In this document: positions 3,380 to 30,599 of the stretch, one piece after another | Position numbering within the stretch: the first letter of the stretch is position 1 | How the letters are laid out: each line of letters starts with the position of its first letter | Source of the DNA: Cladocopium goreaui | Lineage: Eukaryota; Sar; Dinophyceae; Suessiales; Symbiodiniaceae | Length of the DNA: 64,000 bases | Assembly (NCBI GenBank): GCA_947184155.2 | Contig: CAMXCT020000434.1 | Location: 165,633-229,632, forward strand | Reading direction: 5' to 3' | Translations under genes and position numbers: made by a program | Notes under the pieces: generated by a model | The model's input: only the letters and a program-made list of their open reading frames with translations | What the model was told of the DNA's origin: nothing | Database searches by the model: none

Positions 3380-3790
3380 CCCAAGGTGAATCGAATACAC
3401 CAGAAAATGTGGGAAATCTACAGGAAACATCATAGGAACATCCATAGGAAAATCTATGAACATCTATGAACATCTATGAACATCCATGAACATCTACAGG
3501 AAGAACATTGAACAAATCATGGTTTCTTATAGTTAAGACGGAACGTCTACAGCAAACCATGGAGTTCGCCAGCACGTATGGGGGCTTCCCGCAGCCCCTT
3601 CAACCAATTCTGGGACGAATGGGATCTGGTATGAGCCACCAAGAGATGAACCACGAACGACTAAACATGGGTATGTTGATACAATCATTGCTTTCTCCTT
3701 CCTGACATCCGCCATATTATATTTGTGGCTGTTGGGATGGCCCCAATAGAAGTCGGACGGCAGGACAGCTTGGGTGCCCGGGCCGTAAAC

Positions 3791-3849
3791 CTCCGCAGAG
3801 CGTCTGTGTGGAAGCTGTGCAGAATTATCATCTCCTGCATGCTCAAGTG
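3791..3849 (-). pseudogene. GT15-like glycosyltransferase upstream exon, copy A
   Basis: Counterpart of the exon at 28868-28932, shorter by six bases (two codons, in frame). On the minus strand it is bounded by TTCTCAG| and GGAG|GTTTAC. It encodes S-F-H-T-D-A-L-R-R, where copy B has S-F-R-T-D-A-L-R-R. Because the next exon's acceptor is broken, the gene copy is called a pseudogene. Confidence 0.5.
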
Positions 3850-3923
3850 CTGAGAAGTTCAACGATCAAAGAATACATCTTCACCGGGTTGAGATTCAAA
3901 TCCTTGTTTTTGCTGGTTAAACA

Positions 3924-4150
3924 AGCTCGTTACATTGCATGTCAATCCCTACCCATCCACCCTTATTGGATGAAGCCAGCAGCAGCAGACACCTTTTGAC
4001 GAATGGTGGAAAGGTCGCAGGTACACAGACCAGCATACAAGGACAAGGGGGAAAGTAGGCTGTGACCTGACACAGACAGCACTACACAAGCACACCACCA
4101 CGGGGTTACAAGCACAGGTAACCAAGTGTACCTGCCCCTAAGACAACACC
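3924..4150 (-). repeat. Split direct repeat B2 (element 3' end)
   Basis: A 227-base copy of B1 at 4368-4584, differing mainly by a ten-base tandem insertion near 3950. Its outer end abuts AAACA at the host junction, its inner end reads AGACAACACC. About 25 G/C-rich bases separate it from A2. Confidence 0.85.
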
Positions 4151-4176
4151 ACCCAAGATGGGCAAGGGCGGGCGGG

Positions 4177-4362
4177 AGACAAAAAACACCAGACACCCGA
4201 GCAGTTCTCACACACCACTAGTCCAAGCTGCACACTGGCAGCTTGAGCCAAAATGGCATGTGGGAACTGCAAGATCGACCACGCTGGGAGGTGGTGTGTT
4301 AAACCTCCCACCCACAACCATGCAATTTCACTCGCAATGTTCTTACATACATTTGTATTTCA
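4177..4362 (-). repeat. Split direct repeat A2
   Basis: Direct repeat of A1, which lies at 12160-12190 plus 13153-13307. A2 is uninterrupted and shows the pre-insertion state of the LINE target, with a single GACACCCGAGCAGTTC at 4192-4207. It ends at the AAACA core (4363-4367) joining A2 to B1. Confidence 0.85.
4242..4257 (-). other. Dinoflagellate spliced-leader relic in A2
   Basis: The plus strand CTTGAGCCAAAATGGC is the exact reverse complement of the last 16 bases of the conserved 22-base dinoflagellate spliced leader (…GCCATTTTGGCTCAAG). It is in the element's sense orientation. The next six leader bases toward the 5' end do not match, and no GT donor follows, so this is not an SL RNA gene. 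The likely source is reverse transcription of a trans-spliced transcript. Confidence 0.7.
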
Positions 4363-4367
4363 AAACA

Positions 4368-4584
4368 AGCTCGTTACATTGCATGTCAATCCACCCTTAT
4401 TGGATGAAGCCAGCAGCAGCAGACACCTTTTGACGAATGGTGGAAAGGTCGCAGGTACACAGACCAGCATACAAGGACAAGGGGGAAAGTAGGCTGTGAC
4501 CTGACACAGACAGCACTACACAAGCACAACACCACGGGGTTACAAGCACAGGTAACCAAGTGTACCTGCCCCTAAGACAACACC
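4368..4584 (-). repeat. Split direct repeat B1
   Basis: A 217-base copy of B2, starting AGCTCGTTACATTGCATG and ending CCTAAGACAACACC on the plus strand. It directly follows the recombinase ORF downstream end and joins A2 through AAACA. Confidence 0.85.
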
Positions 4585-4836
4585 TTTACCTTGCCACCCG
4601 TCCCTTCAGCGGCTTCTGTGCTGCCTTTTTCTCTCTTTCTACTCAAAGCGTCTCTATGTTACTGTGGGACTTTGTCACCACGAAAAGGGGATAGAGCTGT
4701 CGATGAAGTCCTCGGCAATCATGTCTGGCCTGCACTTCGAACAAATGGCGACAGCTTCTCCTACCTGTTCCCTCGCCGACAGAGGCTTTGCCAGCCTTCC
4801 CGCGGCAGCCCATCTCCAGCCACCACACCGGGTGAC

Positions 4837-6162
4837 CTAGTTGAGCGGATTGCCAACCCACTCACTGCTGTCACTCTTCGCGGTGGCATGCACCATGAGA
4901 GTGGACAGGTTCAGGACCAGTTTCGGTCTGGCTTGGTCCCTGATTTCCTGTACCATGGTTCTTGTATTTTGATCGTTGGTCCTGACCTCGGTCTTGACCA
5001 GTTCGATCATTTTTTGTATCTCTTCAAATTTGGCGGTTTGCTCCAGGGTTTTGCGTGCCACTCCTTCCCACGTAGTTAAGGCCACTTTGTTCTCGGGCAT
5101 CTCCTCCAAAGCGTCCTCCACATAGCCTTGGACCGCACTGGATCCCCAACGGCCGAGCCATTGGACCATTGCTAACGGGTGACCATGCCTCTTGACAGCG
5201 TCCTTGGCCCCTGACCTTCTTAAAGAGTGGCCCGTTACCCTTTCAAAGTTCAGGGCTGCCAGTCTGTGCTTTGCGAGGTTGACTGACTTGCAGGCTTCCT
5301 CGGCATCCTTTCTCAGAGCCGCTATCATTGCCTCTTTGCTTACCATCAGGGCGGGACACCCAACTTGTCCAACCACGGTAAACTCTCTCAACTCCTCTTC
5401 CTCCTAGCCCATGCCCCGAAGAACTTTGGTTCTTCCCGCCATGACCTTCACCGTGGCGTGAAAGGGGCAGTCTATTTCGCCTTCCTCTTCCGGCGGCCAC
5501 GAGCAAACGCACGATCTTGTGCGCCTCGCTCCCTTTCCTGCCGGGTCAGTCTTTGACATAGAAAGGAGCAACGTGACCTCTCTTCTTTCCAGGTCTAGTG
5601 AAGCAGACCCCATCAAGAGGTGTGCGAGCTCTGTTTCTCGCAGCAAGAACGCAGAGCCCATTCCCCAAAGCTCCGGTCCTGCTTGTGGCTGCATTTGGCT
5701 TCGAGTGAAGCCATGCCGACCTGCCTCCTGCCATACCCTCCATAGCTTCGGGGGTATCTCTTCGGCCTTCACCACAGGGCCAAGAGCTCTGGTCAGAGCC
5801 CTCTCTGCGTCTTGCATCGCCAGGTCCAAGGATGAGTCCCATTGATAACCTTTTCGCAGATGCACTTGTTTTGCTTCCGCCAGGTACGTCGCCCCTGAGG
5901 CGAAGTCGGCCGCCCGCAAGACCGCGGCCACTTCCCCGATCACTGCAGGGGTAAGTGGAAATGGCTCCAAGTTTCTTGCCTCGGCGATCTGCACCACCAA
6001 CCTGGCCTTGCTTTCTTTGGCAATCGCTGTTGACTTTGCATAGACCAGCTCCCCATAGTTGATTCTCGCCTGCTTCATCAGATCTTCCGAGGCGGCGACC
6101 ACCAAAGCCTTTGCCGCCGACCCCCTCGCCCTTGTTTTGGGCGGTGCCACCACAGGGCCCAT
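4837..6162 (-). pseudogene. Tyrosine recombinase of the YR retrotransposon (amber-interrupted)
   Basis: This site-specific recombinase would integrate the circular cDNA by strand exchange through a 3'-phosphotyrosine. Read from ATG at 6162: an N-terminal helical core-binding region (about residues 70-130), the first catalytic Arg in L-L-R-E-T-E-L (R175), a beta-hairpin Lys in M-S-K-T-D (K204), then an in-frame TAG at 5406-5404. The same frame continues to 4837 with H-S-L-R (His and second Arg of the HxxR box), the G-R-W box and the nucleophile Tyr in Q-G-Y-V-E-D. All catalytic residues of the family are present on the two sides of one stop. The stop precedes GAG GAA GAG and is probably a point mutation, although the Gag stop has the same TAG-GAG context. 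The C-terminal tail is coiled-coil-like. Confidence 0.8.
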
Positions 6163-7146
6163 GGTCCTCGCGGCGTGGTAGGTGCCCTGAGCTCCACCGG
6201 CTCCAAGCGGTGCCCCTCGCTGGGTAGCGTTCTCCTCCTCTTTACACTTTTGCCTTCGTCATCTGACAAGGCCGCTTCGTCCTCTTTGGGCTCCGCTTTG
6301 ACAACTGACCTGTCCACATCCGCCAATGTGCTCCCTTCCCCGTGCGGGTGAAGATCGCTACTTCCGGCTGACGGGAGCCCCATTTCGTCTTTTGCCTCAT
6401 CATCATTTCCCGGAGGCTTGGCTGCGGCATAGGCTTTCATCACTGAGAAAGGCATCACTGGCCTTTCTCCGTGAAGCGCACAATCCTTCCGCTTTACCTC
6501 GGCCCACCAGGCCATTTCGAGGTGGCGTCCTTTGTCACCCAAGATCCTCTCTGCCAGTGCACCCGCCAAGTCATTCTCTGTTTCCATCCCAGGCTGCGCT
6601 AGCATAGCACTTCTCTTTCCAACAGCACACTACTAGCTTCGCCTGTTCTTCCGACTCATCTGACCCGCAGGCACACTCCAGGCAGATCCACTTAAAGGGT
6701 GCTGTATGCATTCTTGTAATGCACGCACCACACAGCTCGATACCGCACCTGTTGCAGTACCCAATTACTGGCTTCCTGGAGCAGAGCCGACATACCCTCT
6801 GGGCCAATGCCGACCACGGATCGAAGCCATCGTTCTTGGGAAGGCGCACTGGCCCATTGGCGTAGTCTTCACGGGACGCCGTCACTTCTTTCTGCCTTGA
6901 GTTGAATCTTTCTGCGACCAGATCTGCCTTCCTTTTCGACAGCTGCTTTTGCGACGGGCGATCTCTACCTCCCGCGCCTGCAAACCTCCTCTGCTGGCTT
7001 GCTGGAAGCAGCCGCGCGGCCCACATATCTATTCTGAGAGCAAGAACCACAGCAGCGCTACTGCACCGAACAGCGCTGCCACCAGGTAGGAGACTACCTG
7101 ACCCACGAAACCGCGCACTGGCGGGCGAGGGTATGCGCTGAAACAC
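6078..7146 (-). pseudogene. Zinc-finger and linker region upstream of the recombinase (frameshifted)
   Basis: Two overlapping minus-strand frames, 7146-6571 and 6605-6078, read as one protein broken by a frame change near 6600. The first part holds a cysteine cluster with four C-x2-C pairs and a His (…C-R-L-C…C-N-R-C…C-G-A-C…C-L-E-C), like a small RING, B-box or PHD-type zinc-binding fold. The second is acidic and Lys/Arg-rich (a likely nuclear localisation run K-R-R-R) and leads, after another frame change near 6170, into the recombinase. It probably forms the N-terminal half of the recombinase ORF. The exact family of the finger is not identified. Confidence 0.55.
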
Positions 7147-7479
7147 AAGGTGTGTAGGGCTGCTATGTTGCCCCGATGTGTGGCGCTGCCTCTCGGCATT
7201 CGCGGTGGCTGCACGGTGCCACGTGACTACTGGGCTTGGGCATAAAAGAAACTGCAGACCAGTGCTTGCTATGCCCTTGGATCAACTACAAATCTGAGAT
7301 CCTAAAGAGCGAAATGAAGAAACACTAAAATGAAGGAGGAAGAATTTTGAAAGGGGGGACAACCCTGTGTGGAGCCTACCAGAGGCCAACAACACTGCCA
7401 CACCTTTGACTCGAGTCTCCCTCACGTCCCTCTGGGAGCCGCTTTCCTTTTCCCTGCCTACACCTCTGCTTCGAGAGGT

Positions 7480-10295
7480 TTAGGTAACGTTCCACCAGGT
7501 TTCTCTTGAACCTGTGTCAAGGCGCGTCACAGGCACCAAAAGTGCGGGCACAGCCGCACCACGGGACAGCCGACTCAGGGCATCTGCCAAGTAATTGGCG
7601 GCCGATCGGACATGGTTACCTTGCCGCAGGTCAATGTCAAATTGACGAAGCACACAGGCCAGTTCTGCAGCTACGGTTACCATACCTGGTGAGGAGGCCC
7701 GAAGATTTAAAGCCGTATGCAGGACGCCTGTGTTGTCAGTCGTCAGGTGCACAGCCTGACTTGCGATCTGAGGCCCAAACAGCTTGGCTGAAATGGCCAC
7801 TGCCAACAGCTCCCACTCGGATTGCCAGGCTGGGTCTCCTGTTTTGGCCCCCAGCAGCGCCAAATCCCATTCTTGGATTTCGTCTGCCCACCAGGCGACT
7901 GGCTGCCGGCCATACCATAATATACCCCCAAATCCAAACACTGATGCATCTGTCTGTATTTGCCACAGTGAACGCGGGCGCCAATGGAAGGTGGCATTCA
8001 GGGAGCTGCATTGAGTCATCCTGTGCAATGTGCTTAGCGCCAAGTACACCTGCTTCATGAACACCAAATTCTTGCGCTCTCTGGCACGCTTTGTCACCCT
8101 GGCTTCGCATTCGGTGACGCACCCCCAGATCATTCCAACCCAAGGCCTGGCCAGCTTGACAATTGATGTGAGCCAACCTAGTAGTCCAGCCATCGACCTG
8201 AGTAGTTGAACGGGGACTACTCCTTTGTGCTGTAGTAGTTCTTCCAGAGCCCTTTGGAGCTTTTCCAGCTTCTCTGGCGAGAGTTGCGCCACCAAACAGC
8301 CGTCTTTCAGCTGCAGCTGGAATCCGATCCACTGTACGGTGGTCCCTAGCTGCATCTTGTTCCAACTCAGTTGGCAACCCAAGGCCTGCCACAGCAGGAG
8401 TGGTATCGCCAGGTTCACTGACCTTGCCAAGGCATCTGGTCCCTTGACCACGAGTAAGGGATCGTCCACATAGCAGTGTATGCGGACGGTATCCCAGCAG
8501 GCCGCCTGTGAAAGCCTCACCAGGGCTGCGGCCAGCCTTGACCACAACAGCGGCCCGCAGGCCAGGCCGAACGCAACTACTTCTAAGATGTAGTAGACAG
8601 ACCCACTGGCCTTGACTACTACATGTTTGCGCTCCCTGGGCGCCAGTCGGCATTGGTAGAAGGCATCGCGGAAGTCGTTTACTGCGAGGTGAACGACTGC
8701 ATTGTTTTCCTCTTGCATCATTGTGGCCCAGTCGTTTGCGACGTCGCTCACTCGCGGGAGAACGACCCGCTGCCTGATGCACATCAACCCGTTTATGCCA
8801 GATCGGCGGCAATCGACCACCAATGGGGTCTTCACGCCCCCTCCCGGCGCGTGTTGCATAGCCCGCTTCGGCCACTCGCTCCAATTCTTCTAGAGCTGCT
8901 GGCCCTGCCTCCTGGAAGGACTTGTAATTTTCTGCTTGGTCTACATCGCACCAGTCGGTAAGCAGTGGGAACTGTCTTGATAGTTCCACAGCTTTTGTAT
9001 CCCCCTCTGTCACTGGGAATACGTTGTTTGTTGACTCCAAGCTCCTTTTCTATTCCCAGCGGGAAACCTTCTCTCAGCCAATTTGCCACATCCTTCTCTG
9101 GGTCGTGGCTCATTTTCAACAAACTTTCCAAGAGAGTCACTCGTATCGGAGAGGGGGCTTCCGGTTTTACTCCTGCCAGCGATGACAACGCACTGGCTGC
9201 CGCTTCCACAGTATCTTCGTGAAAACCTGTGAATGGCGCCCCCGACGCCAGTGCATGCAACTCCCGAGTGTTCCCCTTGATGACCCCCAAGAGCACATGA
9301 CGCACACTGGCGCCCACCTTCCACGCTGCGGCTTTGCTCTGGATGGCGCCATAGGGGTTCCTCAGCCCCCCTACTGCCTGGTTGTTTTCCATCTCTCTCC
9401 TTTCTCGGTTGCTTGCTGGCTGCTTTGACTGTACCTCTGGCCGCACTGCTCTGAGTGCGTTCCCTTCCACTCTGATGGCTTTCTTTTGCAACGTCACCAG
9501 TCCTTCCTCCGTCTTCAAGAAGCGGACAAGTGACTGCGCCCATGCCCAGCAGAGTCCAGTGGGGTACTCGGCTGCCAAAGCAGTTTTCCACACTTCCCTG
9601 GGAGGATCGAAGAAATAGTCCAGGGTCCTTCCAGCCAGCCCTCCTGGCATATGTTCGTGGGGTCGAGCTTCCACGCACCTGGCACAGACGTCCGTCATCC
9701 AAACTGCGTCTGTAAGAATACCAGTCGGCTTTTTGGTCTCTGCTCCATACGGGCATTGGTCGAGCCCCACCTTTCTCATTCTTTTCATATGCCTCTCTAA
9801 CGTTGGTTGCTCCCAGATGAACGAGTCCTCTGGGTTCTCCAGCGAGGCGGTGTTTCTTGCCGCCTGAGCTTCGTCTAACAGGACCGCCGTTCTCTCGACG
9901 ATTTTGTTGCCTTCCACAGTCAAAGGGTCTCCCCAGCCCTCTGGCTGTGCCTGAGACCGAACAACTTTGGTGGCCCCGAACTTGTCCGACCTCCGTGCCT
10001 TTGTGAAAGACTTGCAAGGAGGCGCCAAGTGAGTGTGGTCTGCTTCTCTGACCCATGCTCTTGCCCTTTCGAAATCCTCGTCCACCAAGATATCCCAACT
10101 TGTGGTCCAAGAGTCTTGGTGGTTCATAACTTCGACCAATTCTCCACCAGCCAATTCGACGGCCCCCGAAAATCCTGCTTGCCCGGCAAACAGCTCCAGA
10201 AATTTGAAGCGCCGGACGCTTGACCCTTCCAGCCCCCTTTCCACGCCAACACTGGGCGCGCCGGAGGCGGAGCTTTGCAGGACGGGGGCTACCTC
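7480..10295 (-). pseudogene. MTase-like domain fused to reverse transcriptase/RNase H (YR retrotransposon Pol)
   Basis: One long coding region in three frames (frame changes near 9045 and 8865). It follows the Gag stop in the same frame and has no ATG before its first motif. From 10244: motif F-L-E-L-F-A-G-Q-A-G (SAM binding, residues 15-24), A-P-P-C with the presumed catalytic Cys at residue 77, S-L-E-N-P (like motif VI E-N-V), and C-P-Y-G…K-K-P-T; together these resemble a C5-cytosine methyltransferase. The RT part starts about 9040 and holds catalytic Asp in N-D-F-R-D-A-F and Y-V-D-D (8472-8461). RNase H follows with D (T-D-A-S), E (S-E-W-E), D (T-D-N-T) and L-A-D-A-L-S-R at its end. Whether the MT domain is active is unknown. 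Confidence 0.8.
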
Positions 10296-11900
10296 CTATT
10301 TCTTGTTTCCTTTTCCTTTTGGCGGGTCCTTCTTGCACTCCCGATTTTGGTGTGCACCCAAACAGATCTGACATCGGTGCGCTCGGTTTGCCGCACAGGG
10401 CTCCGAGCAAGCGTCCGGGGTAGCTCCTTTCGCCCAAGTATAACACAGCTCTCGCCCTTCTGGCGTGCTGTGGAAGAGCCCTCCCCATTTCTTTGGATGG
10501 GTTTTGTTCGTAAAACGGTCCTCCACCTTGGGCTTCGTGGCCTGCTTCTTTTCTTTGTCTGAGCCTTCTCCTGGACTCTCCTTCTTTCTTTTCTTCGTCT
10601 TCTTGTTGGCCGGCGACGTCGGTCCCAAAGGAGCTGTTGCACCCAATGCCGCTTCCACGTTGGCCAATGATGCTTTTGCCCCCTCTGACACTGGCTCGAG
10701 TGTTGGTTGCACTTGGCTCCCCATTCTTGCCAAGAAGGCGACCGCTGGCCTCCTGACATTGGAATCCCAGTATTGGTGATCCAACGCCGCGGCTTGAAAC
10801 ACTCCATCCCAGGGGGTTGCCGGGTTGAAGTCCACGTCCAGCGGCACTTTGCCTTCGTTGTGCGCTCTTTGCAGGTTCCTTCGAATGTGTTCGAACCTTT
10901 CGGCTCTCATTCGATCCTCGGCTGGCATTAGTAGGTGCCAGCACTCCGGAAACTCCTGACAGAGCTCTTTGAACGCCTCGAAGTATCGCTCGAGGGAGTG
11001 AGGTTGGACCACAAGCGGCCTCCTCGTCACCATGCCTCGGGTAGCGCTCACTGGCGCTCCCCCAGCCGGTGCCGCCGTCGCATTGTAGCGCAGCATGAAT
11101 AGCACTGCACGGTAGACTCTGAAGCAGGCTTGCCACGCCTGAAAGTGAGGCGGTCCCGGAATATCGGCCGCTTTCCACGTGCCATCCAGCTGAAAGGAAT
11201 AACTTTTCGTTTTCATGGCTCGTTGTATTCTTCTCCCAAAGGGTGTCAGGATGGAGAAGTCTGCGTAAGGGCTTTCGTCCCTCACCACAACCTTGTCTTC
11301 CATCGCTGCGACCTGAAGATCGGTCGGCTCCACTTCTGGCAATGGGTCCGCACCAGTGATTTCCCGATGGTTTTCGTAGTAGATGCCCATCTCTGCCCTT
11401 GTCTTTGTTGCCACTTCTGTGTCGTCTGTCTGGTCCAACACATTTGACAACTTCACCTTCTTTGGTGACGGTTGGTTCTGTGCAGCCAATGCCGGGGCTG
11501 CCAGTGGCATTCCACTCACTGGTGGACTTGCCCCAACCGCGGCCCTGACCGCCGAGGAGGACTCTGCTCCTGGCAGCATAGGGTCCAAGTCCTCCAATCC
11601 CACGGCCTGCCTGGCCACCCGCCACGCCAACGCCATCTGGATCGTCTCTGTGACGTTGGGATCGCGTGTCGGAGGCGGACTGCCATCCGCCGGGGCGGCA
11701 CCAGAGGGGATCCGCAGGCCCAAAATTGTTTTCTGCAGGACGGAGGCTGGGACCATGGCCAAGATCCGGACACTGGGTGGATTGCCAAGATGTTTGGCAA
11801 ACAACGCCCATAGATCTGCGTCCACAGCTGCGAAGGTGACCACATCGGCCAGTGAATTCAGCGTAGCCAATTCGGCCGGTGAAGCAAGTAAAGATGCCAT
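10296..11900 (-). CDS. Gag-like protein of the YR retrotransposon
   Basis: A 534-residue frame starting with ATG at 11900, the first ORF after A1. The N-terminal half is helical and Ala/Pro-rich, the centre carries a conserved-looking region with many aromatic residues (…S-P-Y-A-D-F-S…R-R-I-Q-R-A-M), followed by a very basic Lys-rich stretch. The C-terminus has a zinc-knuckle-like cluster, C-Q-I-C-x3-H-x4-C, preceded by C-x3-C, suited to binding the element's RNA. The frame is intact, unlike the downstream ORFs. It ends at a single TAG (AAG AAA TAG GAG) that separates it in frame from the MT-RT region, so Gag-Pol could be made by stop readthrough. Confidence 0.7.
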   Translation of the reverse strand: MASLLASPAELATLNSLADVVTFAAVDADLWALFAKHLGNPPSVRILAMVPASVLQKTILGLRIPSGAAPADGSPPPTRDPNVTETIQMALAWRVARQAVGLEDLDPMLPGAESSSAVRAAVGASPPVSGMPLAAPALAAQNQPSPKKVKLSNVLDQTDDTEVATKTRAEMGIYYENHREITGADPLPEVEPTDLQVAAMEDKVVVRDESPYADFSILTPFGRRIQRAMKTKSYSFQLDGTWKAADIPGPPHFQAWQACFRVYRAVLFMLRYNATAAPAGGAPVSATRGMVTRRPLVVQPHSLERYFEAFKELCQEFPECWHLLMPAEDRMRAERFEHIRRNLQRAHNEGKVPLDVDFNPATPWDGVFQAAALDHQYWDSNVRRPAVAFLARMGSQVQPTLEPVSEGAKASLANVEAALGATAPLGPTSPANKKTKKRKKESPGEGSDKEKKQATKPKVEDRFTNKTHPKKWGGLFHSTPEGRELCYTWAKGATPDACSEPCAANRAHRCQICLGAHQNRECKKDPPKGKGNKK

Positions 11901-12190
11901 AGCACAGAAGCTTCCAATGCATCAATCCTGCTTAGGACTGAAAGGAAAGTCCCGCACCGACGGCCGGGGGGGGCTGACCTGATGCGGCGTAGCCCTCCGG
12001 GAGCCTTTGGGACACCGCCCAAGGCAGCCGAAGCACAGGCCACACGCGCAGCCCCACACCCAGCAGATCACCAGCAAGCCGCACAGGACCCACTGAGGAT
12101 TAAAGCCGGCGGAGGACAAAGTCGCGGGTGTCCAAAGAATCAGCTCGGTGCCCATCAAAAGACAAAAAACACCAGACACCCGAGCAGTTC

Positions 12191-13136
12191 AGCAGCAGTA
12201 GTTTTGCCTGTACTGGTCGAAGAACGCGCCGACAGCAGCGCAAGAACAGCACAGGGAGGCAGCGCCGGAGCGCTGCGACACCACCCTAAGGAAAAGAGAC
12301 GGGTACCTAAGTAGGTTCCAAGGAGCAACCTTAGCCCAACAGGGAGACACGACCCACCAGCAGTCTCAAACCAGATCATCCATCCCCTTTGGGGTACCTA
12401 AGGGACCAAATGGTCTGAACCACTTTTCCCATCCAAACAGCATGCTCAGAAGAACCCCCCATTTTCCACCATCCGAAACGTTTAAGGATGGGGTCCTTCG
12501 CCACCAGGTTGCTGGGTCTAAGTTCACATTCCCAGCATATATGGTCCCAGTTCCCAAGTCCACCACAGTTCCAGATACAAGAGGTATCAAAAGGACCTCC
12601 GTTCTGAAAGCATGCAGGGCTGCACGCCGCACCAAGAAGCACCGTACGAAAGGAAGAGTTGACATCCAACAACTTTCTCATACCTTTAAAATCAAATTGT
12701 AAGAAATCCTGAATGGTATAATCAAAATCCTGATTGTCATGTCTGTCCTGGTCAAGAAATTTAACAACCATGAACCACCTCCATCCATCCCGAAGTCTAT
12801 GTTGCAACTCCGAAACCCAGTCCACATCCGGCAGCCTAAGGTCAATTTTACAAAAAGAACCTTGGATAGCCCAAACCCAGGGCTGTTGAACTTGCCAGCC
12901 CTTATCATCCATCCACTGTTTAAAGGCATCCAAAGGACTGCCACGTTTAGCATCCCATTCCAACTGGAAGTGGTGTTTCAAGTAATGAACAACCCTAACC
13001 AGATTAACTCCAACCAAACAATCAACATGAGTCAAACCCCCAACCAAGATACTACGCAGATACTTCGAAGCTCTGTACAAGGATCTCTGGCCTCTACACA
13101 GGGCCGCCCAGACCCGATCCGCGCTACGCTGAGTAG
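12191..13136 (-). mobile_element. 5'-truncated LINE (non-LTR) fragment
   Basis: The fragment is flanked by GACACCCGAGCAGTTC at 12175-12190 and 13137-13152; A2 has this 16-mer once, so it is the target-site duplication. A minus-strand frame (13080-12376, 234 residues) is Trp-rich and ends in a cysteine-histidine cluster C-x3-C-G…H-I-C-W-E-C, resembling the C-terminal zinc-binding segment of LINE reverse transcriptases. No RT catalytic core remains, as expected for 5' truncation. There is no poly-A tail; the presumed 3' end reads CTGCTGCT on the minus strand. The element family is not identified. Confidence 0.65.
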
Positions 13137-13186
13137 GACACCCGAGCAGTTCTCACACACCACTAGTCCAAGCTGCACACTGGCAG

Positions 13187-13202
13187 CTTGAGCCAAAATG
13201 GC
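13187..13202 (-). other. Dinoflagellate spliced-leader relic in A1
   Basis: Same 16 bases as at 4242-4257, CTTGAGCCAAAATGGC on the plus strand, at the same place within A1. It lies about 105 bases inside the element's 5' end and in the sense direction of Gag. Confidence 0.7.
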
Positions 13203-13312
13203 ATGTGGGAACTGCAAGATCAACCACGCTGGGAGGTGGTGTGTTAAACCTCCCACCCACAACCATGCAATTTCACTCGCAATGTTCTTACATACATTTG
13301 TATTTCAAAACA

Positions 13313-15430
13313 AACTGGTCTCCAGCAAAAAAAGGCCGTTGAACCAGTTCCACCACGTCCCTCCAAAGCTTTCAGACTCTAGTCACTAGTCTGCCATTCT
13401 CACGAGGATGCTTAAGGATTAAAAATTGAGCCATCCAGCAAGGCAAACCAAATCATGGTCTCAACCTGTAACCTCTCCGAACTCTTTGACAAATTGCAAA
13501 GAGTGGATCAGACTGGAGCCCAAGGCTCTGTATCTCCACAAACCCTGGGAACATTTTGGGACTTTTGCAGTTTTTTTTTCTGATTTATTTTGTGATTTGG
13601 ATATCTTTATGGGCCATACCACCATACCCCAGTAAACCTCCCCATCCGTCGATCCATTGCCATCCCAGGCTCCGTCAAGGGCACGTTCAGGCGAGCGCAC
13701 GTGAGGGGTGAGCATTCACCTCAATCGCAGCCAGCAGTAGTTGGCCGCGATCCAAAACCAAGGGGGTACCAATTGGGCACCAATGAGGTACTACTGTCAT
13801 GGGAAACTAATAGACCATAGTGGTGTCAATTATTGATGAGTTTCAACTAATGACTAATATAATATAATCTAATATCAAATATCCAATTCTTGAAGGGTCC
13901 GTAATTTTGGGCCATGGCCAAGTTACTGATCTGTGAGATGCGCAGGAGCGTCTGTAGATTGAAGAACTAGATGCAACTTAGACTCGTCTTCGTGAGACGG
14001 CCATCTGTTTGATCAGCACGTCTTGAGGGAGAAAGGCGTTCCAAACAGCAAAAGTGGATTGAATGTAATGAGTGTCTTCAAGCATGAGCCCCACTTCCAT
14101 GGGCTAAACCCATCGTCGTTTCCGGTCTACTCTCAAAAAGGCTAACTTGGTGGGCGGGGAATTTTGGACATGGCTGAACAAAACAATACAATAAACTGTA
14201 TACAATTCATTCCCCTCCCACAACCATCATCAGGTTTGCCGCATGGCTCAGTTGCCGAGCTGCTGAAAGGATCCACTCAAAGTGGGTGTTCTGCGACGTC
14301 CCGCAAAGCCGTCTTCCGTGCCTGGTGGATTCATCGGTGCGTGGTAAAACCATCAAGATACCCAAAATCATCTATAATCATCTACAAATGGGGACCCTCC
14401 ACTCCCATGTTTGATTCCCAGAAAGTGAGCTCGGCTCAAACATGCTCAAACATTTGTGTGTGCCAAGGTGTACCAAGGGGTCACACTCACTGACCTGAAG
14501 TAGTAATTTCTGGTCAATCCATTGTAAGATCTTGGGCTGAGGGATTCGATCATTCGAAACCATGCCAAGTTCGACGATGGCAAATGCACCCCGTCTACAT
14601 CATCCTACCGTGTAAGGTTAAATTGGCCACAGGCACCTCATGAAAATCTATGAAAATCTGCTATCCCATGTAGTCATGGTCCATGTACATCCCACCGTCC
14701 TGGGATTGGTACCACGAGACCGCAGCTCGCACGCCCACATCTTCCTTGGCCAGGTGACCATACGGTGCACACGGATTCTAACTTAGCTGCCAAATCTGCC
14801 AAACCTATCCATGGAAGAAGTTCTTCAGATTTTATTCTGGCCAATGGGCCGATGGTTCAGTGGTAACTGGATGAAGCATCGACCTCGATGAGGGGAGTTT
14901 GGAGTTTGGAGATCCGTAAACAAGTCATGAGAGCTAGCATGTGTTTGTCCAAGACACCTCCAGGACGTACCCGTATCCATTGTATCTGGCTGCCACTGGC
15001 TGCCACTCTGGCAGCGTGGTAACGCCAAAGAAGGGCACGATTCGCAGCGTAGCCTTGGAATGAACTCACATTGCATGCTGGCGATCAGAAAGTGGCGGTG
15101 GCTCTTGCGGTGCCAGGCAACAGCATGCTCCCCACCACCCAGCCCACTTTTTGAAAGCAATTCGCCAAGATGCGTAAGCAACATTCGGCATGCAATGGCG
15201 CGTATGGCCGGAACATTCCCGGTGGGCAAGAACGGTTTTGTTCCTGAACAATATGGGGATGGGTCAAATGTTAAGCCCTATGAGATCACAGATTTTAGTA
15301 TATGTTGAGTATTAACCATCTACTTATTGAGGTACCCAATTTTGACCCATAGCCATATCAGGTTTAGAAAATGTTGTAAGTTTGGCCAGTTTGGCCGGAT
15401 GAGCCCTCCCTCAAGGACAATCGGAGAATC
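13313..15430. other. Right part of duplication copy A, then intergenic DNA
   Basis: 13313-14325 pairs with 29011-30005 of copy B. From 14325 to 15430 I see no convincing coding segment, RNA gene or named repeat. The 14260-14325 segment corresponds to a possible exon in copy B (29915-30000) but has a one-base deletion. Confidence 0.5.
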
Positions 15431-25900: not shown

Positions 25901-28900
25901 GGGAGCCCGAAGGAGAGTTGTCAGTTCAGCCACCTGGGACACCTAATGGGGAGTTGAGCAATCAGTCTGAACCGCCTCAAGGAGTGGAACAGTCAGAGAA
26001 TGAACTCCCTGATTACGTGCGTGTGCCGGTTCCAGAAAGTGTCAGTGAGTCCGATGGTGATGCCTCACAGGCGGGCGTCAATCTTGAACCAACGGATGAC
26101 CTTCTGTTTGGAGATGACATCACCATGTCTGCAGATGATAGGTGTTGCCAGTTCTGGGAGATTGAAATTCCTGTTGAAAACCATGAAGAGCATGCACTGT
26201 TTTGCGCTGGATCAGCAGATGAAAGTGTGTTGTTGGTGACTGGAGCAAAGAAGAAACGAGTTGAAGTCCGTTTGAGTGATTTAAGCAGTGCTGACCAACA
26301 GCGCATGGCGGTGGCCAAGCACAAAGAAATAGGCGCCTGGCTCAAACATGGAACTGTGAGAAAAGCATCCAAAGGAAAAATTCCTGAGGAAGCAATCATG
26401 CGCTGCCGATGGCTGCTCACCTGGAAATCAGCCTCACCTGAGGATCACCCCAAGGATGTGAGTGAGGGTCGTAAGGCAAAGGCCCGGTTGATTGTTGTTG
26501 GATACGAGGATCCTGGAGTTGGGGTGGTTCAAAATGATTCACCCACACTCACCAAAGATGGAAGACAGATGGTGGTGCAACAGGTGAGTAGTCATGGTTG
26601 GGAACTAGTTTCCTTCGATGTCTCAACTGCCTTTCTTCAAGGCGAAGGAGACGGCCGCTTGCTTGGTTTGTATCCCACCCCGGAGTTAACAGAAGCCCTT
26701 GGGTTGGAACCTGGTGATCAGTGTCAATTGGTAGGTAGTGCGTATGGTCGTGTTGATGCTCCTTATTTGTGGTATTGTAAGTTTCGTGACTCGTTGTTGC
26801 AAGAAGGTTTTAAACAGTGTACTTTTGATCCTTGTGTTTTTACTCTTGTTTCTGTTGATGAAAAGGGGAAAGAAAGAGTTCATGGTTCCCTAGGGGTTCA
26901 TGTCGATGATGGCATTGGGGGTGGGGACAACATGTTTATGGCAGCCTTGGAAAGAGTCAGAAAGCGTTTCAGTTTTGGATCATTTGGAAAAGGGTCCTTT
27001 GTCTTCACGGGCATAAGGTTTCAGCAGTGGGATGATGGCAGTGTGGAGTATGATCAGATTGACTATATAGAGAAGATTAGGCCAATTGAAATCCCAAAAC
27101 AGAGACGTACCAATGCTGAAGCTGCGCTGAGCCCGAGTGAAGTGACGCAGTTGCGAAGTCTTGTTGGAGCTCTGCAATATGCAGCAGTCCATACCCGTCC
27201 CGACATTGCGGCCAAAGTTGGAGAGATCCAAAGTAGGGTGGCAAAGGCAACAGTCGATGACATGATTTTTGCAAATCGAGTGTTGCATGAGGCAAAGGTT
27301 CACCCTGTGACTTTAATGACATTGCCGATTGCCCCTGAACAAGTGACTTTCTGTGCCTTCTCCGATGCCTCGTTCCTTTCAGGAAAAGAGAAATATGCCC
27401 ATCAGGGAGGTTTGATTTTTGTCACGACTCCAGAGTTGCTGGAGAACAAGAGATCAGTGGTAGCACCAGTAGCTTGGATGAGCAAGAAAATTCAACGGGT
27501 GACTAGGAGCACCTTGGGGGCTGAAGCAGTGGCATTGAGTGGGAATGTTGATCGTTTGTTGTGGTTGAGGATTTTGTGGCAGTGGTTGAATAACCCCTCG
27601 ATTGAATGGCAGTCCCCCGAGAAAGTGTTGCACGAAGCCCGACAAGCTGCTCTTGTGACCGACTGTAAGAGTGCCTATGACCTTCTGACTCGCACGGCCG
27701 TTCCACAGTGTGAGGAGCATAGGACCACCATTGAGTGTTTGCTCATCAGAGAAAGATTGCAGGCCAATTGCGTAGTGAGATGGGTTACATCAAATGCTCA
27801 GCTTGCAGATTGTTTGACAAAGAGCATGGATGCAAGCGTTTTGCGACAGTGTTTGAAGAGTGGTCGGTATTCTTTGTTTGATGAAAATCGAGTGTTGCAA
27901 CAGAGATCTGACAAGCGACAGCGTTTGAAATGGGCCAAAGAAGTGACGTCCAAGTCTCCAGAAAATGAGACAGTTTTGAAATGTACAGAAGAAGTCCGGC
28001 AGGACACATGGGAACAGGACTCAAGTGGCCAGGTTATCCGCGTACATCATGTCCCAAGATATCAGTTGTTTTCTCCTGTAGGAATTCTGGATTGTCCTGT
28101 TGATCTTAGAACCTTGGGGTTGGAGAGAGTAACTCATGGTTGTGATTCGAACGGGCATAGATGGTACAATAAGGATTTTTGGCCTGGCACGAGAGGACAT
28201 GCAAAGATGTCAAACCTCTGGACAGGTAAGACCAAGTAAGGGGTGTGTGAAACTTCCACAGTTTATTGTCCTGGTGAGCTTGACGGTTGGACCTCAGCTG
28301 CCATCTTGGCAGTCCTTGTTTTCCCATAGTCTTACATGTGAGGGAGGTTGTTTACCATTTGCACCTTGGCCGCAACTATTGGTTCACCTCCAGCGGTGGG
28401 CAGCGGTGCGGATTGAGCCATTGGTGGGAAAAGCAGCAGAGGCGTTGCTGCTGGTGGCTGCTGTTGAAGCGAGGCTGCTTCGCAATATATATATATAAAT
28501 ATATATATATATTGAACAAAATAGGGTTTCCTATAGTTTAGGACGGAACATCTACAGCAAACCACAGAGTTCGCTGCCGCCCTTTCAAGGGATATGGTAT
28601 GAACCACCACATGGGGATGTTGACCAGCAAGAATCTGATGGTCCTTGTTCCCTTCTTTTAAGGCCGAATATCAAAATTGAAGAACCTGGGACCGAATCCG
28701 CTGCTCATCCTAGAATCTGTTCTTTGGGTATACACCCAATTTTGGACCTTTAGAATGGATATGATCCAAAATGAACACCTTGCAATCATCTGTTTCTCCT
28801 TCCTGGCATCCACCATATACTTGTGGCTCTTGGACGGCAGGACAGCTTGGGTGCCCGGGCCGTAAACCTCCGCAGAGCGTCTGTGCGGAAGCTGTTGATG

Positions 28901-28932
28901 TGCAGAATCATCATGTCCTGCATGCTCAAGGG
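19917..28932 (-). CDS. GT15-like glycosyltransferase, two exons flanking a copia-filled intron (partial)
   Basis: Upstream exon 28932-28868 (TTCTCAG|…GGAG|GTTTAC) and downstream exon 20003-19917 (AAAAAG|G…GGAG|GTACC). Joined, codon phase is kept and the product reads S-F-R-T-D-A-L-R-R then D-W-I-D-S-W-G-G-W-W-L-Y-R-W-G-D-A. This resembles the FRS.aYr…GG.yYeRWGDAp block of GT15 (Kre2/Mnt1) alpha-1,2-mannosyltransferases, Golgi type II enzymes using GDP-mannose. The intron is 8864 bases, most of it the copia element, against about 410 in copy A. Further exons probably lie upstream (possibly 29.9-34.5 kb) and downstream, but I could not join them. The family call rests on this one block. Confidence 0.5.
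20199..20435 (+). repeat. Copia 5' LTR
   Basis: Begins TGAAACTTCCACAG and ends GCTTCGCA, with TG…CA ends. Identical by eye to the 3' LTR except GCTGCGATC here for GCTGCCATC there. Confidence 0.93.
20437..20447 (+). promoter_or_regulatory. Primer-binding site, initiator tRNA-Met type
   Basis: TGGTAGCAGAG starts one base after the 5' LTR. It is complementary to the 3' end of a eukaryotic initiator tRNA-Met ending CUCUGCUACCA, the usual primer for many LTR elements. Confidence 0.75.
20560..28239 (+). CDS. Copia Gag-Pol polyprotein, 2559 aa
   Basis: Single uninterrupted frame from ATG at 20560. Gag N-terminus, then a zinc knuckle C-x2-C-x4-H-x4-C (residues 318-331) after a Lys/Gly-rich run; aspartic protease D-T-G-A (464-467); integrase zinc motif (His1389/1390/1394, Cys1422 and Cys1425) and catalytic D1453, D1512, E1548 with exactly 35 residues between the last two; RT with D2020 and V-D-D (D2116, D2117); RNase H with D2269, E2322, D2368. 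All catalytic residues are present. It is far longer than typical copia proteins (about 1300-1500 aa) because of long segments between protease and integrase (residues 600-1380) and after RNase H. Residues about 660-870 have odd Arg/Gly/Ser/Asp-rich composition where another frame is also open. Confidence 0.92.
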   Translation: MPDGAEGQPGGSVSVEEKTSNLWSLLPSFDPSVDSAKEYADKVKFLWGICPVKDRSMLAPRLALQCKGTAWSQVRAIDASKLTDPETGYKVLLKALETWEDAEELQTFDKFEKAFYRVVQKTDESAMSFVNRINVAFEEVGSETTVQQVRAFVMLRQSALTVEDKKRVVSMAGNYDPSAVEKAMRSLSTKVLGQTDAGRKKVYPANFVEEELDEIHYAAEEECDEEQALAMLIEEGDETALAIQEFEDQVIHVCQDSPELAMAFSTYQEARQKLRDKFRSRGFWPLRHGKGKGKNKSKKGKGPRKYQSLAERIASSTCRACGARGHWKDECPLKDKNVTADANVILTEELSGGGELLDELPGHDLANWQVGMCSKFWLPTMVPPEYHVDNEEFSLIGSHEMILHAINIPKGKSCCEKSLKYFPKLKEMFRRAIETSFSVTGRSPESTEESRNGSLGDSGTGIIDTGASKSVIGEKRVSALLTTLKAEHREMVKWKESETVFRFGNNGVLKSVGALFVPFGKQWMKIEVVRGTTPFLISNAFLHALGADVLVSKSCLEVSSWGKSMTLTRNAKGLFIVKLADLIDAASMRSNSEKFEEVITLASSRIENRSREVYCTHKQQQQPNTMSSTSSTTATAAVAQPQVDREPDRLQSQSALSQADSHDSSKCLGNAISGTPDRDARCDAVRRSGCLSGLRRSTTTRDQKSSPSRCDDLEGVGSVEVPGREVAAQVLLSGIPGGPKVRQVHEGAQETGVSLGTEFSGLRGSHGQDAGRLLEGLLPGVCQTVGQSRDVQDVSEGRDREESRTRVGAVDRRGDIASDEHDVITKSEAPHGRRAVADGDRGAAERGDDHSHGDLAARDGQDQGRLGGSLNERSSVEQLETDQQLTNQLLKKIELAMGTIEAELTCLQKIWPTLTDSQTFQKFGSDLLEIYCEEHSQITEQACKLGLKARRFTFSDGDLSTPEGQAALWKVLEEERPREVWMAPECKYWGNFSRRNMGRSKSTEQMISEGRKKQRVHLKLCNDVYWYQMDCGGQFHLEQPQGSELIYQPEVYDIYCGTLCTVFDMCEVGKLLAPHAMRRVSGNNFLRKRTHVYTSSKIFHDAFDHRLCPGHHKHAPIAGKIYHLGRWISLSEYAARYTSGFGRNVARYVSCRFDEKPLVLDELHVCDVDEAFVAGVVKRKRVSAAAVPESLEEPVSAEVKRPRYHCKQTPAGDHGCAAGEYWDGIFKKIETMVPRVGKRVLDDDGVLAQIQKGAPNLKVQRVEACRGTERLRLPGADADPETIPLRLTVVKDRITGQSMVPGPAEEWAALPKRQQIRKGQSAKMSLTIFGSFPKSGELETMGSDKEAGTGDDGEDVVVVSKDPPKNVPVHGPGYMLLNGDEKAQIRRLHHNLGHPHPQKFAWFLKERHAEPHLVQGALDYQCDSCAETKAGPDSTRPGTIHENLGFNQVIGMDTAVWTNSVGKNFQCSHITDEGTLFHVGSHVVSADTDSQIRVFEKCWMLWAGTPQVVYVDPGTEYTAEAWQDRMQRHDIHVKVSASEAHWQLGRVEIHGSVVKKMLSRMDLESPINSVGEFEQALVHVFNAKNSLSRVKGYSPEQAVLGIAKRLPGSVVSSQGVGSITLAEGTGPESEAFRASLERRSSARRAFIEADNSSSLRRALLRRTRPMRGPFEIGDLVLYWRRRGANLRRDRGRWYGPASVVAVEGSKNVWLNHAGKLVRTSPEQLRAASFREWKQAKELLTESGPGNSDLQRALNDGSFIDVDGEDFPDWEAETEGYDPSIGEPEGELSVQPPGTPNGELSNQSEPPQGVEQSENELPDYVRVPVPESVSESDGDASQAGVNLEPTDDLLFGDDITMSADDRCCQFWEIEIPVENHEEHALFCAGSADESVLLVTGAKKKRVEVRLSDLSSADQQRMAVAKHKEIGAWLKHGTVRKASKGKIPEEAIMRCRWLLTWKSASPEDHPKDVSEGRKAKARLIVVGYEDPGVGVVQNDSPTLTKDGRQMVVQQVSSHGWELVSFDVSTAFLQGEGDGRLLGLYPTPELTEALGLEPGDQCQLVGSAYGRVDAPYLWYCKFRDSLLQEGFKQCTFDPCVFTLVSVDEKGKERVHGSLGVHVDDGIGGGDNMFMAALERVRKRFSFGSFGKGSFVFTGIRFQQWDDGSVEYDQIDYIEKIRPIEIPKQRRTNAEAALSPSEVTQLRSLVGALQYAAVHTRPDIAAKVGEIQSRVAKATVDDMIFANRVLHEAKVHPVTLMTLPIAPEQVTFCAFSDASFLSGKEKYAHQGGLIFVTTPELLENKRSVVAPVAWMSKKIQRVTRSTLGAEAVALSGNVDRLLWLRILWQWLNNPSIEWQSPEKVLHEARQAALVTDCKSAYDLLTRTAVPQCEEHRTTIECLLIRERLQANCVVRWVTSNAQLADCLTKSMDASVLRQCLKSGRYSLFDENRVLQQRSDKRQRLKWAKEVTSKSPENETVLKCTEEVRQDTWEQDSSGQVIRVHHVPRYQLFSPVGILDCPVDLRTLGLERVTHGCDSNGHRWYNKDFWPGTRGHAKMSNLWTGKTK
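22544..23170 (+). CDS. Overlapping +1-frame ORF in the copia element, 208 aa
   Basis: An ATG at 22544 opens a 208-codon frame to TGA at 23170, inside the polyprotein ORF. Its product has ordinary globular and coiled-coil composition (M-T-L-R-E-W-G-Q-L-K-F, D-P-K-Y-G-K-F-M-K-E-H, A-W-A-L-S-F-Q-A-Y-V-E-A-M, then a Glu/Gln/Lys coiled coil), while the polyprotein frame there is low complexity. Either this is a real overlapping gene, or the polyprotein once used this frame and two compensating indels shifted it, or a frameshift or splicing event is involved. I recognise no family. Confidence 0.45.
   Translation: MTLPSASGTPFPGLQTEMLDAMLSGEVDASLAFEDRQLPEIKSRRPPGVMTLREWGQLKFPEGKWRHKSFFQAYQEDPKYGKFMKEHRKLVSAWALSFQAYVEAMDRMQEDCSKAFYQEYARQWAKAEMSKMYPKAEIEKSQGPEWELLTGGVTSRPMSTMSSPSQKRPMEEEQSQMAIEVQQKEEMITRMAILQREMDKIKADLEGV
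28234..28243 (+). promoter_or_regulatory. Purine-rich tract before the 3' LTR
   Basis: AAGTAAGGGG ends four bases before the 3' LTR and contains the polyprotein stop codon. It is a short, imperfect candidate for the plus-strand primer. Confidence 0.45.
28248..28484 (+). repeat. Copia 3' LTR
   Basis: 237 bases, TGAAACTTCCACAG to GCTTCGCA; same length as the 5' LTR with one visible substitution. Host AT repeat resumes directly after it. Confidence 0.93.
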
Positions 28933-30599
28933 CTGAGAAGTTCAAAGATCGAAGAATACATCTTGGCCGGGTTGAGATTCCAGGAAATCATTGTTTTTGC
29001 TGGTTAAACACACTGGTCTCCAGCAAAAGGGCCCTTGAAACAATTCCACGTCCCTGCAAAGCTTTCAGACTCTAGTCTGCCATTCTCAATGCTTGAAGAT
29101 AAAAAGATTGAGCCATCCAGCAAGAAAAAACAAATCATGGTCTCAACCTGTAATCTCTCCGAACTCTTTGACAAATTGCAAAGAGTTGATCAGAATGGAG
29201 CCCAAGGCTCTGTATCTCCACAAACCCTGGGAACATGTTGGGACTCTTGCAATTTTTTTCTGATTTATTTTGTGATTTGGATATCTTTATGGGCCATACC
29301 CCGGTAAACCTCCCATCCGTTGATCCATTGCCATCCCAGGCTCCGTCAAGGGCACGTGGCCCTTCCAGGCTGGCGCACCAAAGGGCAACACATGCCCGCG
29401 CTCCAAGGCTGAGTTCACCTCAGCAGGGTACCAGTCACCGGAGGCACCAGCACAATTGGACTAGACCCATACCAGTGGTGTCAATATTGTCAATTAGTAA
29501 TGTCAACTAATGGGATACCAATAGACCCATAGAGTGGTGTCAATTATTGATGAGTTTCAACTAATGACTAATATAATCTAATATCAAATATCCAATTCTT
29601 TAGGGGACTGCAATTTTGAAAAAATGGCCGCGTCACTGATCATCTGTGAGATGCGAGGATCTGGAGATTGAAGACGGCCATCATCAGGGCGTTTTGAGGG
29701 AGAAAGGCTTCAGGGCGTCAGCAAAATGGATTGGATGTACTGAATGTCATCAGGCAATGAGCCCTAGAAATCCGTAGGCTGATTTGAAGAAGGGTAACTC
29801 TGGTGGGCGACGCGTTTTTGGACATGACTGAACAAAACAATACAATTAAAAATCATACTCAATCTATGTCGTTGATGGATCAGAAGATAGCATTTACTCC
29901 TCAGCCAACACCAGATCTGCACCCAGAGTCTGTTGCCGCTGCCGAGCTGCGGAAAGGATCCGCTCAAAGTAGGTGTTCTGCGACGTCTCGCTAAAGCCTT
30001 CCTGGCGCGAAAAGGCGACTTGCTCTGGTCCGGATTTGGGACCCGTGCTGCTTATTTTAGGTGGTTGAAATATGTTGAAATCCCAACATTTTGTCATTTA
30101 GTGGGGCACTGCACCAAATTACCAAAAAATCATGGATTACAATGGATTATGGATTATTTCACCATAGTAAATCTTCATGTTTGTTCTCTGGGTGATCTCC
30201 CATTAGTGCTACCCCCATCTCCAACAGCTCTCCTCAAAGGCCCTGTCGCTGTTCAGCACGCCACCTTCATCTTGGGCCATCGCCGCAGGTGGTCGGTCTT
30301 TGCCTCGGAGAGCTGACCGGCGAGCTGATGGTGGCCATGACCTCACTGAATCACCATCCTGCTGGCATGGTACTAATAGGAGTTATTGTTACTGAACATA
30401 CTGTATTAACCTATTAGTACCATTAAGTCATTTGAATTCATGGTACTAGGAATTATTGCTCGTTATTACAATCATTATTTGGAAGACTCAGCATTGTAGA
30501 CATAGTAATAATATGTAATAATTCTCAACAATAATCACAACAACCACAACACCAACTAAAACCAATATATTATAAAAATACCAGTCATCGTTGTCATCG

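Follow-up and report, generated by a model that had tools for sequence, protein, structure and literature searches.

We found that a tyrosine recombinase (YR) retrotransposon with split direct repeats, located at positions 3920-13308 of a 64,000-nucleotide stretch from the dinoflagellate Cladocopium goreaui (GenBank assembly GCA_947184155.2, contig CAMXCT020000434.1, positions 165,633 to 229,632 of the forward strand; hereafter the window), was inserted cleanly, at one point of the junction that joins its two ends. This point is fixed exactly in 8 of 13 insertions of the element and its relatives, and is compatible with the other 5. The relatives suggest that no host DNA is added or lost and that only half of the usual recognition site is needed. 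The window element is of the SymbioDIRS type. End completion and target choice of DIRS/Ngaro-type elements are still mostly a model, and one genome with many families, empty sites in repeat arrays and a leader tag where the RNA probably begins would make both steps testable.

In the orientation of the window the element reads A1 B1|A2, then frames on the minus strand, then B2; read on its coding strand, it has the A1-ORFs-B1A2B2 plan (ORF, open reading frame) of PAT/Ngaro elements. The outer left repeat A1 (3920-4150) starts where host DNA ends at 3919 (GGTTA|AACAAGCTCG), the internal copies B1 (4177-4363, ending in TTTCAA) and A2 (4364-4584, delimited by alignment) abut at the internal junction, and the outer right repeat B2 (12160-12190 plus 13153-13308) meets the host, which resumes at 13309, at TTTCAA|AACAAACTGG; all four are given on the plus strand. 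The stretches 3919-4150 and 4363-4584 differ by one mismatch and one 10-bp gap, 4192-4367 and 13137-13312 by one mismatch in 176, and 4177-4207 is identical to 12160-12190, the alignments being colinear for A1/A2 and B1/B2. The first-pass annotation of this DNA had proposed just such an element with colinear split direct repeats, and the coordinates it gave prove exact. However, its A and B were swapped relative to the coding-strand names, since gag, pol and YR lie on the minus strand, and the right outer repeat, although colinear with B1, needed correction: B2 is interrupted by a later nested insert of 946 bp (12191-13136) with a 16-bp target-site duplication (12175-12190 and 13137-13152). 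The A-coding-B-A-B arrangement is present in the window copy and also in relatives, and no inverted repeats of at least 20 bp, as expected of DIRS1-like inverted termini, occur in 3500-14500.

Relatives were sought in the same genome (1.17 Gb, 6202 contigs), where 47 of 2739 first-look candidates were scored, with matches in 44 contigs among the 50 matches listed. Ends were read or attempted in 22 elements (half of those 44 contigs), yielding 13 independent insertions from nine families with both ends usable; nine elements gave no event. Denoting the window copy C434 and related copies by other C numbers, we left out C5948 (without a right end), C2044 (same flanking bases as C3241), C759 (right end only, its left side being another B|A junction), and C2240, C3403, C176, C284, C218 and C6047 (no split repeats in the stretches examined). 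Ends read host|A-start on the left and B-end|host on the right; joined, B-end and A-start give the internal junction, which is readable inside the copy in 12 of the 13 insertions; the exception, C1726, is without A1 and B1, and its junction was taken from its own two ends. The internal junction had earlier been seen as a relic of a circle junction, rarely found beside its element; as such junctions are readable in the other copies, we rejected this idea, and element and junction side by side are not rare.

Target and junction share no base at the insertion point in 8 of the 13 insertions, and elsewhere 1 (C3813), 2 (C907), 3 (C1247), 4 (C4878) or 6 bases (C434, the extreme). An insertion point on the A side is compatible with all 13 insertions and exact in 8, and one on the B side, six bases away, with none (0/13). 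At the ends of C907 and C297, the first position after the insertion point carries the element base on the left and the target base on the right. The first-pass annotation had explained the insertion by recombination of a circle junction with a matching target core of the AAACA type. The pentamer does occur at 3919-3923, 4363-4367, 13308-13312 and 29006-29010, and the window copy's 6-bp match (P = 0.0025 for at least six matching bases at one random site), together with the 4, 3, 2 and 1 bp shared in four other insertions, would fit such a core. However, with 0 bp of contiguous homology in 8 of 13 insertions, and with C1726, C4691 and the other insertions lacking AAACA at both host junctions, an outcome that the annotation itself had named as refuting, the core fails as a general rule, and we regard exchange at it as very improbable. 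With 123 occurrences in the window, AAACA is informative only by where it stands, and in C434 it is the half-site described below plus the base before it. A 2-bp core AA was also set aside; under it the C434 empty site should have two A's more than are seen in the paralog, although a paralog so diverged cannot settle a difference of two bases. Likewise, the 3-bp circular junction that DIRS1-like elements share between both termini and target was not found across these insertions, 8 of the 13 sharing no base.

Judged from sequence, the junction looks like a recombinase site whose arms are inverted, and the targets show a likeness only to the arm next to the insertion point. In the window, the proposed site at the B1|A2 junction (4352-4369, plus strand) would consist of the arm TTTGT (4352-4356), the spacer ATTTCAAA (4357-4364) and the arm ACAAG (4365-4369), with the insertion point after 4363; it was read from the letters and is backed by the inverted-arm statistic over the 13 insertions. 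In their junctions an inverted copy of the A arm ends seven bases before the insertion point, corresponding to an 8-bp spacer, with 45 of 65 matches, compared with 34/65 two bases away and 10-25 at the remaining offsets. The targets lack this inverted arm (20/65, versus 11-22 at other offsets). They resemble the A arm itself at positions +2 to +5, with matches at 38 of 52 positions (next-best offset, 25) against 13.5 with window DNA as the null and 16.0 with shuffled targets, neither null reaching the observed value (0/20000 draws each). Taking one insertion per family gives 27/36 and 26/36 matches (0/20000 each), and the eight homology-free insertions alone give 22/32 (summed from the list). 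Chance as the source of the resemblance is thus rejected by two nulls and the sliding control. Where the family's own base at position +3 is A, the target also has A (4/4 insertions); in 6 of the remaining 9 insertions the target has C at this position. The feature common to the targets is a degenerate half-site, N-A-A/C-A-A, immediately to the right of the insertion point.

Empty sites support clean insertion for five insertions. The joined flanks of C434 align with an unoccupied paralogous site at 28783-30001 of the window (plus strand; joint between 29006 and 29007, GGTTA|AACACACTGG) with 72% identity overall and 84% over 120 bp around the joint, and this one spanning match is ungapped at the joint (1/1). 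The first-pass annotation was therefore right that the window holds a usable empty site and, as the joint-spanning alignments bear out, that the insertion made no duplication. As the A1/A2 and B1/B2 copies are near-identical and the flanks only 72% so, the duplication behind the empty site took place long before the insertion. The joined flanks of C907 match unoccupied DNA at 119 of 120 positions without a gap; for C1247 and C4878, the best ungapped matches reach 95.8% and 93.3%, and 19 of 22 and 76 of 77 spanning matches, respectively, are ungapped near the joint. Joining the flanks of C4691 gives a 206-residue open frame, which we take to belong to a copia-type element; it has 42 homologs, of which 32 extend 10 residues past the joint in both directions, all but two of them without a gap there (30/32). 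The flanks of C5754, C4878, C1247, C907 and C3813 are tandem or simple repeats, and units of these arrays take the role of empty sites; single array units at C5754 read TTTTTCTTGGCG, matching by eye the prediction of the rule. No spanning match was found for C1726, C3241, C448, C735, C303 and C297 within the DNA already retrieved, to which the search for empty sites was confined. Absent duplication and constant ends do not by themselves call for a recombinase, and host end joining could ligate a linear cDNA with fixed ends blunt into a break, in which case the integrating enzyme would not be the YR. However, this would predict neither the half-site resemblance at a fixed offset (38/52, 0/20000) nor empty sites without target loss, which makes it a rather improbable explanation.

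We propose, with about as much doubt as confidence, that this SymbioDIRS-type element inserts through a half-site target, exchange of one strand and replicative resolution. The DNA copy would probably be a circle whose B|A junction serves as the recombinase site, with short inverted arms (TTTGT and ACAAG in the window family) around an 8-bp spacer, and the genomic target would offer only the degenerate A-arm half-site. Recombinase bound to the A arm would cut a single strand in circle and in target where the spacer meets that arm and exchange it; the other exchange would fail or leave no trace, and replication would convert the joint into an insertion without duplication, loss or need for spacer homology. 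YR cuts are staggered, and Cre places its own 1 bp inside an 8-bp spacer; in our elements a single base pair separates the insertion point from the A arm. A target with an A half-site only would permit exchange only at the A edge. On the cut polarity assumed here, the exchanged strand would be the sense strand, and this would speak against a plain first-strand cDNA circle. An ordinary reciprocal exchange of both strands between spacers that do not match, with the mismatches then repaired on one side or segregated, would give the same end product; bacterial YR elements tolerate non-matching spacers, and the C907 and C297 ends fit equally well. However, with both strands exchanged, boundaries would be expected at either edge and several repair outcomes should appear, whereas one is seen, in 13 of 13, and the targets have no B arm for the second cut (20/65, versus 11-22 at other offsets). 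We therefore think such an exchange unlikely.

Several observations weigh against single-strand exchange at a half-site. In the five insertions with shared bases the boundary is an interval and was placed by the rule, and all three spanning matches of C5754 are gapped near the joint. The second-best score of the inverted arm (34/65) lies only two bases off, and by eye this arm is hardly visible in C297. The left target side is slightly B-like (50 matches versus 39.3, P = 0.03, 11 insertions), which the sliding control, with 51 and 53 at other offsets, did not confirm. As a single genome supplied all 13 insertions and their families have similar arms, they are not fully independent. Finally, Pfam recognises the YR neither in the window copy nor in relatives, and its profile-to-profile comparison with Cre, lambda Int and HP1 Int gave E-values of 0.094 and 0.019 at low probability. 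Because of these weak values its identification rests on residues: the alignment to Cre is ungapped from H289 over R292 to Y324 and a second one covers the first catalytic arginine, so that the catalytic Arg, HxxR and Tyr line up with those of Cre. Weak PHROG integrase matches appear in 4/14 and 2/14 relatives (best 0.0083 and 0.005). In the window, the YR region (4837-6258, minus strand) is made up of two stretches, each open from stop to stop, that share a frame and are separated by a stop, its catalytic residues being located through the alignment of relatives.

The B repeat carries a further feature, GCCATTTTGGCTCAAG at 13187-13202 in B2 (minus strand) with a second copy at 4242-4257 in B1, which we take to be the 3' part of the dinoflagellate spliced leader (SL). 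This leader-like sequence and the likeness to Symbiodinium elements would by themselves point to a dinoflagellate host. In a gapped search, an SL-like sequence was found on the coding strand inside B2 of all nine families (9/9), 77-144 bp from the tip, with a summed score of 124 against a null of 63.1 (sd 3.2; 0/20000) and 55 on the opposite strand; C735 is the weakest match (P = 0.008), and the A-side control of C3241 is void because that stretch extends into B1. Ungapped matches to the 16-mer are less clear, ranging from 11 (C907, C735 and C303) to 16. The window B repeat extends 65 bp further inward of the leader (4177-4241). This sequence probably marks the 5' end of the element RNA. Its place in the 5' terminal repeat suggests an RNA start some 100 bp within the element, and the outer tip would then have to be rebuilt from the internal B1 copy. 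In the simplest reading, trans-spliced RNA would be copied with the outer tip missing and the tip restored from B1. That single-strand exchange at a half-site with integron-like replicative resolution is combined with a host spliced leader as RNA 5' end, renewed in each cycle, the lost tip being rebuilt from the internal repeat junction, is possible, and we offer it tentatively. Dinoflagellate retrogenes are described as carrying leader remnants in the parts consulted of PMC12014239 and PMC6050394. No paper in the open-access literature searched brought spliced leader, DIRS, dinoflagellate and tyrosine recombinase together; the portions consulted of de Mendoza et al. (2018, PMC5890265) make no mention of a spliced leader and one of trans-splicing, in general terms.

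The remaining frames complete the coding part, all on the minus strand. A gag-like ORF of 541 amino acids from stop to stop (10296-11921) is named by its position and is without a profile match. The pol region is split over two frames, which together with the stop inside the YR region makes the window copy a broken one: the reverse transcriptase (RT) and RNase H part (7480-8889) matches Pfam RVT_1 at 1.7e-10, above the cut-off, and RT_RNaseH weakly at 0.0095, below it, and the methyltransferase-like part (8832-10295) lies in the other frame and shows no Pfam methylase match. However, its counterpart in relative C5948 matches the phrog_363 DNA methyltransferase at 4.8e-7, and pol of relative C907 exceeds the cut-off of Pfam DNA_methylase (C5 cytosine; 23.1 versus 22 bits), placing a cytosine methyltransferase in the pol frame by these two relatives; no Dam profile was found among the Pfam and profile matches. 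In C5948 the gag-like, pol and YR frames (554, 963 and 825 amino acids) are all open from stop to stop. Upstream of the YR, a stretch at 6571-7281 matches the Pfam zf-B_box zinc finger (24.8 bits, cut-off 24.1); in C5948 a B-box-like zinc finger shares one open frame with the YR.

This architecture is already known. SymbioDIRS-Dnmt3 of Symbiodinium, as far as described in the portions consulted of PMC5890265, has the same A-coding-B-A-B order, a methyltransferase in the pol frame with RT, a separate YR frame and a dinoflagellate host, but those portions describe no target site, junction or spliced leader; our element is set beside SymbioDIRS-Dnmt3 by its architecture. PAT/Ngaro elements share the split direct repeats, the A1-ORFs-B1A2B2 plan, RT-RNase H and YR (PMC4157794 and PMC8547959, in part). 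However, Ngaro, as described there, has no methyltransferase, in contrast to the relatives here, and the methyltransferase of the DIRS group and PAT is described as Dam-like (PMC3783388, in part), the one here being of cytosine type. DIRS1-like elements, according to the sections consulted of PMC3266345, are likewise YR retrotransposons without target-site duplication whose internal junction rebuilds the ends, but they have inverted terminal repeats and insert at an identical 3-bp junction, whereas our elements have direct split repeats and require no match. Integron integrases carry out an asymmetric exchange that needs replicative resolution (PMC4792948, in part), as proposed here; theirs is a bacterial cassette system with single-stranded partner sites, a likeness of mechanism and not of membership. 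Within the open-access literature searched, partly in excerpt, we found no report of half-site insertion without a matching core or of a leader-like sequence in the terminal repeat, seen here in nine families. If the half-site rule is true, these recombinases need far less target information than usual site-specific recombinases.

A few minor observations concern individual copies. The nested insert in B2 of the window copy carries an ORF of 234 amino acids on the minus strand, without a profile match, and is probably a truncated non-LTR (long terminal repeat) element. C1726 and C5948, which belong to the window's own family, carry just one A at the left and lack A1-B1 (an A-ORFs-B form), C5948 with a partial B. 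At the left end of C759 the B|A junction occurs twice, 624 bp apart (a 592-bp repeat, 99.5% identical), a tandem that perhaps arose by insertion into an existing junction or by unequal exchange.

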